From Catalimonadaceae bacterium JC749 (GTDB taxonomy: Bacteria > Bacteroidota > Bacteroidia > Cytophagales > Cyclobacteriaceae), in assembly GCA_021730635.1 (NCBI GenBank), contig JAJNNC010000001.1:62001-126000 (forward strand): a DNA stretch of 64,000 bases, given 5' to 3'. The notes beneath the pieces are model-generated. The model did not search any database and was not told where the DNA came from. It saw only the letters and a program-made list of their open reading frames with translations. The position numbers were made by a program, and so were the translations under genes. Positions 60,476-62,376 of this stretch are shown here, piece after piece. Positions within the stretch are counted from its first letter, which is position 1. Each line of letters begins with the position of its first letter.

Positions 60476-61687
60476 ATGATGACCAAACTATCTGCCACCT
60501 TATTTTTTCTGCTATTACTTTTCAGACAACACGCTCCTGCACAGGCTTTAGAAAAACCAGACTCTATAGACATTAGCTATGGTAACAGAGGTATTGAATT
60601 TCAAAGTCCCGATGATCGCTTCCTACTACAAATTCAATCGCGGCTGCAGTTTCGCTATGCGGTACCTTCCGACCAGGATCCCATTACCTTTGATGACTTC
60701 CAGCTGCAAAGAAGACATACCTTCAAGATTAACCGTGCCCGTCTGAAAATAGGGGGGCATGCCTTTCAACCCTGGCTGAAATACTATTGGGAGTATGAAC
60801 TTTCTCAAGGCAATCTGCTGGATTTTCGCATCATGGTGGAGAGATGGCCTTTCTTCAACATTAAAATCGGACAATGGAAGACAGAGTATAACCGGGAAAG
60901 GGTGATCTCATCAGGGCAGCAGCAGATGCTGGAGCGCTCCCTGATCAACCGCCCTTTCACCCTGGATCGTCAGCAGGGTATTTCTTTGTATGGCCGTCTG
61001 CAGGCAGCAGGAAGTGCGGATTTTCATTACTGGTTTTCTGTGCTTACCGGCACAGGCAGAGGAGCAACCATCAATGATGATGCCCATCTGCTCTATACAG
61101 CCCGTGTGCAGTGGAACTTTACAGGACAGCTCTTGGAGATGACGGGTTCCGATGTAACTTATCGGGAGCAGGGAGCAGGCAGCCTGGCCTTGGCAGCAGC
61201 GACCAACCGTAGTGCGTACACTCGCTTCTCACAGGCTGGGGGTGGACAATTAGAAGGGTTTGCATCCGCACAGCCCGGTCAGTATCGTACCCATCAGTGG
61301 GTAGCAGAAAGTGCCTGGATGAAGAAGGGGTTTTCCTTTCAGCAGGAGTTTCACTGGAAACAGATCCATGATTTTGTCAGTGAAGAAACGACCACCTTGA
61401 TGGGCAACTATGTGCAGGCAGGATACTTTTTCCACTCTCTATGGGAGTGGGTACCACAGCCTCTGGAACTAGCAGCCCGCCATACCTGGTTTCAGCAGGA
61501 TTTGTTCGATGCCAATGCATCTATGAACAATGCCTTGGAACAGGGATTTTCTTTTGCCGCTAACTGGTTCTTTCAGCAGCACCGCAATAAGCTGACGGCC
61601 GATGTAGCCTATCTTCATTTTTCTGAAGCTATACAGGAACCAGCCAGTGGTTGGCGTTTTCGCTTTCAGTGGGATATATCTCTGTAA
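60476..61687 (+). CDS. OprP/OprO-type porin
   Basis: This 403-aa outer-membrane beta-barrel has a signal peptide (residues 1-22, ending APAQA). The OprO/OprP-like start SYGNRGIEFQSPDDRFLLQI is followed by RRHTFKINRARLKIGGHAF and NIKIGQWKTEYNRERVISS, and alternating hydrophobic strands run to a C-terminal FRFQWDISL ending in a hydrophobic residue. Such porins often carry phosphate or other anions. Phosphate regulation is not evident from the sequence. The second ATG at 60479 is equally possible. Confidence 0.88.
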   Translation: MMTKLSATLFFLLLLFRQHAPAQALEKPDSIDISYGNRGIEFQSPDDRFLLQIQSRLQFRYAVPSDQDPITFDDFQLQRRHTFKINRARLKIGGHAFQPWLKYYWEYELSQGNLLDFRIMVERWPFFNIKIGQWKTEYNRERVISSGQQQMLERSLINRPFTLDRQQGISLYGRLQAAGSADFHYWFSVLTGTGRGATINDDAHLLYTARVQWNFTGQLLEMTGSDVTYREQGAGSLALAAATNRSAYTRFSQAGGGQLEGFASAQPGQYRTHQWVAESAWMKKGFSFQQEFHWKQIHDFVSEETTTLMGNYVQAGYFFHSLWEWVPQPLELAARHTWFQQDLFDANASMNNALEQGFSFAANWFFQQHRNKLTADVAYLHFSEAIQEPASGWRFRFQWDISL

Positions 61688-61851
61688 GGAGAAAGACACC
61701 CATGAGAAAAACCTATTCTTATGTTCCGTATTCCATGCAGGAATTCTAGCTTCGGAGAAGCAAAACGCCTAATATTTTCTAGCAACTTTTTTATAGAATA
61801 AGTTGAATATCAAATCATTTTTTCATAAATTTTGTTATATAATACTTCATG

Positions 61852-61885
61852 TTAACTTAACATTGTTAACATTAACTTAACATTG
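61852..61885 (+). promoter_or_regulatory. Direct repeats upstream of the small membrane protein gene
   Basis: TTAACTTAACATTG occurs at 61852-61865 and 61872-61885, 20 bp apart (two helical turns), with a partial TTAAC between them. Repeats on one face of the helix suggest a regulator site. The gene starts 38 nt later. Confidence 0.45.
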
Positions 61886-61922
61886 AATTACATTTTTTAA
61901 ACGAAACAGAAAGGAGGAAGCG

Positions 61923-62063
61923 ATGAAAAAGACACCGTATGAAGCAAGAGCAAAATATGGACTCAACCGGTTCATGTTTGGAAAAGCCAAAAAGAAATCC
62001 AGGCCTTTTTACTGGATTCTCATTGTGCTGTTTTTGGCATTGTCGTTATTGCTAAGCCTGTAA
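61923..62063 (+). CDS. Small (46-aa) single-pass membrane protein
   Basis: ATG at 61923 reads a 46-aa protein with a charged N-terminal half (YEARAKYGLNRFMFGKAKKK) and a C-terminal transmembrane helix (FYWILIVLFLALSLLLSL). It is preceded by AAAGGAGGAAG (61910-61920), a near-perfect Shine-Dalgarno sequence with a 2-nt gap, far stronger than at other genes here. The length is below usual gene-calling limits. No homologous family is recognised. It stands alone, with direct repeats upstream, so tight regulation is likely. A membrane-stress or regulatory role is only a guess. Confidence 0.75.
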   Translation: MKKTPYEARAKYGLNRFMFGKAKKKSRPFYWILIVLFLALSLLLSL

Positions 62064-62158: not shown

Positions 62159-62376
62159 CCGGTTCTGAAGGATCGTCATTCTTTGCCATAATACCTCATA
62201 CCCAACATATCGGCATGTATTCATAACAGGTTCGGAAGTTATACCCGTTGCGTTAGGAGGTTTCTTCCGAACCGGTTGTAACTGCAGGCAATATATCAGA
62301 GAGATTCCTGCCTGCGCAGGAATGACGGTTGAAATGAGATATGACATAAACCTGGTTCGGAAATAACTTCCGAACC
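62159..62376. repeat. Palindrome-rich intergenic region
   Basis: GGTTCGGAAG (62229-62238) and CTTCCGAACC (62264-62273) form a 10-bp perfect inverted repeat. GGTTCGGAA (62354-62362) and TTCCGAACC (62368-62376) form a 9-bp one around ATAAC. A related GGTTCTGAAG stands at 62160. A REP-like palindrome lies between them. All use the same GGTTCGGAAG arm, so this is one family of hairpins inserted or duplicated here. Confidence 0.7.
62304..62323. repeat. REP-like palindrome
   Basis: ATTCCTGCCTGCGCAGGAAT has 8-bp perfect arms and a CTGC loop, followed by GACGG. The minus-strand reading gives the peptide VIPAQAGIS, a known by-product of this type of dispersed repeat in many bacteria. It is probably a short extragenic palindrome; copy number is not visible here. 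Confidence 0.7.

Follow-up and report, generated by a model that had tools for sequence, protein, structure and literature searches.

A small gene for a 46-residue protein with one predicted transmembrane helix lies downstream of a tandem TTAACA box whose units are phased at 11 bp, and the same box recurs in the promoters of RprX-type sensor kinase genes. The gene (61923-62063, forward strand, ATG start) is located in a 64,000-nucleotide stretch of the Catalimonadaceae bacterium JC749 genome (positions 62,001 to 126,000 of contig JAJNNC010000001.1), here called the window. We tentatively favor a joint model, to which we give slightly less than even confidence, in which an RprXY-type two-component system represses through the TTAACA box a small inner-membrane protein that restrains a membrane partner.

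A sequence-only reading of the window had proposed an overlooked, real protein and had staked this on conservation in relatives. The genome itself contains a second copy (paralogue L002) that is 69% identical to the window protein, and a search with a profile built from seven members found relatives in 24 of 390 Cyclobacteriaceae genomes and 12 of 84 genera, counting its own genome. Phylum-wide, the profile matched two of 395 genomes, namely the own genome and, as a weak partial match, one other; the two named records found with the protein are Cyclobacteriaceae metagenome-assembled genomes. By these searches, the small protein is conserved in one bacterial family. The profile search returned 31 places, of which 27 were counted as copies: one had no locus, and L139-L141 were excluded (E 3e-5 to 4e-4, longer frames), while the weak short copy L137 was retained. 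For L117 the script assigned the start to a TTG that precedes the ATG by 24 nt.

Across the seven aligned members, M1, K3, Y6, E7, K11 and G20 are invariant. The two copies of the own genome differ with dS 0.81 and dN 0.11. Nine of ten further pairs have dS above 2 or saturated with dN of 0.08-0.24, the tenth (L120-L121) being near-identical. Synonymous changes greatly exceed amino-acid changes, which indicates purifying selection on the protein. One might still regard the ORF as spurious, as it is short and has no family match, but conservation of start, length and core residues together with the low dN makes this highly improbable. The conservation that the earlier reading had asked for is present, and from these comparisons we conclude that the ORF at 61923-62063 is a genuine gene. 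Searches of Pfam, NCBIfam and PHROGs returned nothing beyond weak, chance-level matches (best E 0.0051, below the cut-off where one is given), none of the seven members matched the Pfam DUF1127 profile at E up to 1, and no publication on the protein was found in the open-licence literature; it was previously unnamed and no curated family covers it. A phage origin of the gene was considered and rejected, with no match in phages.

The first 28 residues contain ten lysines or arginines and one glutamate (net charge +9) and the remainder forms a single hydrophobic C-terminal stretch, in agreement with the basic N-terminus and single helix described earlier. Segment 1-28 is predicted to be cytoplasmic. 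As this positive segment lies beside the helix, the protein is predicted to sit in the inner membrane with its N-terminus inside.

The gene is preceded by a Shine-Dalgarno site, AAAGGAGG, at 61910-61917 on the forward strand. The motif had been recognized correctly from the letters alone, but it is separated from the ATG by 5 nt (AAGCG) and not by 2 nt as claimed. Its rarity holds for the window, where GGAGG was found at none of 36 ORFs of at least 150 aa when scanning 4-18 nt before any start within the first 40 codons; AAAGGAGG also occurs at three other places in the window. Within the family AAAGGAGG is kept in L001, L002, L127 and L129. AAAGGAG is found in L120, L121, L122 and L131 as well as at the ATG of the G001 copy (L003/L117), and GGAGG in L005; in the remaining rows of the copy comparison none of these strong motifs was seen. 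The case shows that a strong Shine-Dalgarno site in raw sequence can flag a genuine missed gene.

Upstream of the gene the TTAACA tandem box, a predicted response-regulator operator, spans 61852-61882 (forward strand), with an exact TTAACA-N5-TTAACA at 61866-61882 and TTAACTTAACATTG before it. TTAACTTAACATTG occurs twice without mismatch, at 61852-61865 and 61872-61885, as a direct repeat of 14 nt with 20 nt from start to start. The TTAACA units begin at 61866 and 61877, and an additional TTAACA at 61857 is 9 bp off. In the paralogue three units are found in 11-bp phase. The helically phased repeats pointed out earlier are therefore real, but the conserved unit is TTAACA with a period of 11 bp and not the 14-mer. 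A pair of units at spacing 11 with no more than one mismatch was found within 150 nt upstream of 18 of the 27 copies, and in 10 both units are perfect. Other spacings from 7 to 23 occurred in 0-4 copies, except for spacing 22, equal to two periods, in eight. At the same stringency Markov shuffles gave a mean of 0.18 copies (maximum 2) and reversed sequences none; at two mismatches the count was again 18 copies, against seven for reversed sequences and a shuffle mean of 1.44. Nine copies lack the box (L116, L117, L118, L119, L131, L132, L134, L138 and L142).

The box is also found beyond the small gene. In the 19 small-gene genomes searched for a triple unit allowing one mismatch, 18 matches were obtained compared with one for the reversed pattern; they represent 14 distinct places, two of which are copies of the small gene. 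Four relatives searched at two mismatches yielded 23 sites (5 reversed), and the own genome 45 sites at three mismatches (28 reversed) and eight exact pairs (4 reversed). With looser patterns the excess over the reversed control shrinks and the noise grows.

The repeats could instead work at the level of the mRNA leader, for instance through a protein or structure that controls the Shine-Dalgarno site. The box is within the predicted leader, the RNA fold has a z of -2.46 and the repeats form a short hairpin. Against this, the box also occurs in reversed orientation before genes of a different family and in regions that separate divergent genes, as DNA operators do, and nothing in the window matches an Rfam family at gathering score, so that an RNA family was rejected as well. 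We consider control in the leader very unlikely, though less so than a spurious ORF, and treat the box as a DNA operator in the following.

TAnnTTTG is the -7 consensus of Bacteroidota promoters. A putative -7 element, TAAATTTTG, is located at 61826-61834 on the forward strand and matches this consensus with one extra base. A TTG at 61803-61805 on the same strand, a putative -33 element, is part of a block conserved in the alignment of L001, L002 and L117. The paralogue L002 has an exact TAATTTTG 30 nt before the box core. In eight of the 18 boxed copies an exact TAnnTTTG starts 8-15 nt before the first unit, compared with a mean of 0.17 (maximum 2) for shuffled flanks; it is missing there in the other ten, and the match in the window is imperfect. 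A promoter and terminator scan found promoter-like sites no commoner than chance. With TAnnTTTG just upstream, the transcription start would fall within the box, an arrangement that speaks for repression. We infer that the box lies on or after the transcription start in a repressor-like position. The sequence-only reading had suggested that the protein is highly expressed or tightly controlled. High expression finds no support, since the strong Shine-Dalgarno site is kept in only part of the family and the box sits where a repressor would bind; a real small protein under tight control is supported by conservation, purifying selection and the conserved operator-like box.

Tandem boxes commonly serve as activator sites, and the opposite sign of control was also considered. 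The protein would then be a negative-feedback subunit induced by its own two-component system, with MgrB-like logic, in keeping with its small size, its single helix and the box it has in common with a kinase gene. At the equivalent upstream place, an exact TAnnTTTG was found in none of 21 other box genes; five of the 21 have one nearby, four of these downstream of the box (L108 +59, L110 +71, L163 +70, L111 +59) as expected for activation, and L162 at -17. One-mismatch versions near the upstream place occur in L112 (-9) and L165 (-6). At the small gene itself, however, TAnnTTTG precedes the box in the eight copies mentioned, and across the boxed copies the distance from the beginning of the last TTAACA unit to the start codon is 18-64 nt, with an overlap with the Shine-Dalgarno site in L122. 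In most copies this leaves little space for a downstream promoter. We rate activation as unlikely, and repression is the sign that we carry forward.

Which regulator binds the box is suggested by the sensor kinase genes. Among 35 promoters of RprX-type kinase genes, drawn from 37 loci (L260 and L269 yielded none) and including two split ORFs, L247 and L250, whose upstream stretch is inside the gene and not a true promoter, 18 have an 11-bp TTAACA pair at 11/12 or better, 13 of them perfect. The own-genome kinase promoter (L111) has a box at 11/12. Spacings 8, 9, 12, 13 and 14 gave 0-2 promoters and spacing 10 gave 15. The box often sits in the region that separates the kinase gene from a divergently oriented one. 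In the kinase loci 20 of 160 other ORFs score as well, 17 of them facing an RprX-type kinase gene with which they share the intergenic region. The own-genome regulator encoded at G000:C2 (L111) scores about 257.5-257.7 bits with the RprY model and 183.6 with the PhoB model. It is the best RprY match in this genome, yet it remains below the 370-bit equivalog cut-off, which is reached in none of the 24 small-gene genomes. Regulators matching the RprY model were found in all 24, with at least 228 bits in 18. In the passages of PMC6032018 and PMC5706477 retrieved with motif words, no RprY operator sequence was found.

Presence of the box tracks the regulator to some extent. A boxed copy of the small gene was found in 16 of the 18 genomes with an RprY match of at least 228 bits compared with one of the six others (Fisher 0.003), in a table compiled by hand, with a cut chosen post hoc and with related, non-independent genomes, three of which (g13) are close relatives. 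G160, with a partial match of 223 bits, has a perfect box at its kinase gene and none at the small gene, and would weaken the association. In G102, which has no strong RprY match, the box is on the weak short copy L137. The g13 genomes have no strong RprY match and yet retain a perfect or almost perfect box next to a different gene (L198-L200). Together with the kinase promoters, these data suggest that the small gene is controlled by an RprXY-type two-component system. A box common to kinase promoters and a missed small gene defines a directly testable regulon in Bacteroidota.

Spacing differs between two sets of kinase genes. In the first, with the highest RprY scores, 10-bp pairs (11/12 or better) are found in 10 of 15 and 11-bp pairs in four; in the second (RprY 219-287 bits, including the own genome and also counting G160 and the regulator-less L280), 11-bp pairs are found in 14 of 20 and 10-bp pairs in five. 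The sets therefore overlap, each including some pairs of either spacing. The 10-bp pairs of the highest-scoring set are at L245, L246, L248, L249, L252, L253, L254, L255, L256 and L257. A tree of 34 regulators, omitting those of L257, L259, L262, L265, L276 and L279 (not recognized) and L280, places the own RprY-type regulator near ones with 11-bp kinase boxes, with a weak support of 83/38 for its own fork; one fork further out the support is 95/88 and the group takes in one row without a box. It is conceivable, though we think it improbable and somewhat more so than activation, that RprXY paralogues in Cyclobacteriaceae are largely separated by spacing, 10 bp in the highest-scoring set and 11 bp in the other, and that the 11-bp set silences a small protein which restrains kinase or transporter through its basic segment, as a double-negative switch. 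We know of no such switch.

An alternative to RprY is PhoB. The TTAACA box would then be a Pho box and the small protein would belong to a phosphate-starvation regulon, acting like the PhoR-binding DUF1127 proteins. Box-like sites were found upstream of both own-genome Na/Pi symporter genes, at a PhnZ-like phosphonate oxygenase gene (L112; 219 bits, cut-off 214.6) and at a GDPD-like gene. In relatives they were found at PhoD (L161), at a PlcP/LpxH-like phosphoesterase with four units (L158) and at a Porin_O_P / Na-Pi pair (L159), and a Porin_O_P gene adjoins the window copy. Pho boxes consist of two 11-nt direct repeats (PMC4415409), and 11-nt tandem repeats are present upstream of the small gene. 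For a PhoP of the Bacteroidota species Riemerella anatipestifer, TTTAACA is given as the most conserved letters (PMC9603813). On the other hand, no pair with up to two mismatches was found around the own phoB-like gene (L167) and no triple with up to four mismatches in the own pst region (L047), unlike the perfect pairs at many rprX-type promoters. In 30 Na/Pi loci four distinct genes, two of them own, reached at least 15/18, the same number as in the reverse-strand control; most Na/Pi genes of relatives show no such box, and most matches at phosphate genes have two or three mismatches. Due to the boxes at some phosphate genes PhoB stays a rival, with a chance that we rate as low and similar to that of activation. 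The pstSCAB-like operon (L047:812-4428; G000:C1 about 130.8-134.4 kb) lies about 5-8 kb past the window end, carries no TTAACA boxes and has an Rrf2-like regulator gene as well as TonB-receptor-like genes in its vicinity.

Returning to RprXY-type repression, we suggest the following mechanism. An OmpR-family response regulator would bind the tandem TTAACA units phased at 11 bp and thereby control the small-gene promoter; most likely this is the RprXY-type regulator encoded at G000:C2 (L111), where the same box precedes its own kinase gene. With the box immediately after the -7 element, binding of the phosphorylated regulator would prevent initiation. The small protein would be made as long as the kinase is silent, and its production would stop once the kinase fires. 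The basic segment of the protein, next to the membrane, probably docks onto a partner there, and our guess is that this is either its sensor kinase or a transporter for a nutrient. Docking would hold the partner in its resting state, giving a double-negative switch. The protein may therefore be a small modulator in the inner membrane that acts on a kinase or transporter, and it is a candidate small-protein modulator in Bacteroidota.

MgrB, SafA and MgtS are small membrane proteins controlled by two-component systems. Compared with them by features and not by sequence, the protein described here also has some tens of residues, one membrane helix and predicted OmpR-family control, but its basic domain is predicted to be cytoplasmic and the box position suggests repression and not induction. 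RprXY of Bacteroidota resembles the proposed system in that the own genome has an RprY-type regulator and a kinase gene, although this regulator is below the equivalog cut-off. Small DUF1127 proteins bind the sensor kinase PhoR (PMC12501420). They share a length below 50 residues and a positive charge with our protein, kinase binding having been shown for the DUF1127 proteins (PMC12501420); in contrast to them it has a predicted membrane helix, and none of the Pfam matches of the seven members is to DUF1127. R. anatipestifer PhoP binds the promoter of its own operon in DAP-seq (PMC9603813) and resembles the proposed regulator in its TTTAACA core and in having its own promoter as a target, a comparison by motif and not by orthology. 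The Pho box of PhoB shares the 11-nt tandem direct repeats, but its unit is CTGTCAT in E. coli (PMC4415409) and TTAACA here, and the own phoB-like gene and pst region have no box.

Two recurrent gene arrangements surround the small gene. In the first, its neighbors are an M20 amidohydrolase-like gene, which it faces, and some way upstream a gene for a polytopic membrane protein; this was found at C8 of the own genome and in G001, G013, G113, G155 and the g92 genomes. In the second, it follows a Porin_O_P outer-membrane porin gene, as for the window copy (porin at 60476-61687, forward strand) and one copy in G155, a member of another genus, where a 50% identical porin is directly upstream of copy L178. 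The remaining copies are in other settings. The eight loci of the neighbor alignment were chosen because the membrane-protein gene precedes the small gene. The membrane-protein neighbor was considered as a PiT phosphate permease and this was rejected, with a PHO4 profile comparison probability of 6.9% and no PDB match; its AlphaFold model has a pLDDT of 40. A divergent polytopic membrane family (L045:5826-6968 and relatives, own-genome L191, L190) likely has a distant PiT relation at the level of the family, as two of six members match PHO4 (best 9.9e-8).

Further sequence features were observed in the window and in other loci. In the window several imperfect inverted and direct GGTTCGGAAGTTA-like copies are found at 62213-62376, downstream of the small gene. 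In L108 in-phase (C/T)TAACA-like units (L108:2733-2782) lie upstream of an own-genome SusC-like receptor gene and are followed by TACTTTTG, a TAnnTTTG match, in an activator-like arrangement. Strong reversed TTAACA boxes adjoin genes for an exported protein of about 256-283 aa in L146, L198, L199, L200, L203, L205, L206 and L214. This protein has a YDC[IV][TS]G[ST]AxYAL-like motif (YNCLTSTALYA in L203), and AAAGGAGG-like Shine-Dalgarno sites precede its genes in L146, L199 and L206. By eye, this gene and an aldehyde dehydrogenase-like gene point away from each other in L203, L205 and L206, and a possible relative in the own genome is found at L043:2588-3382.
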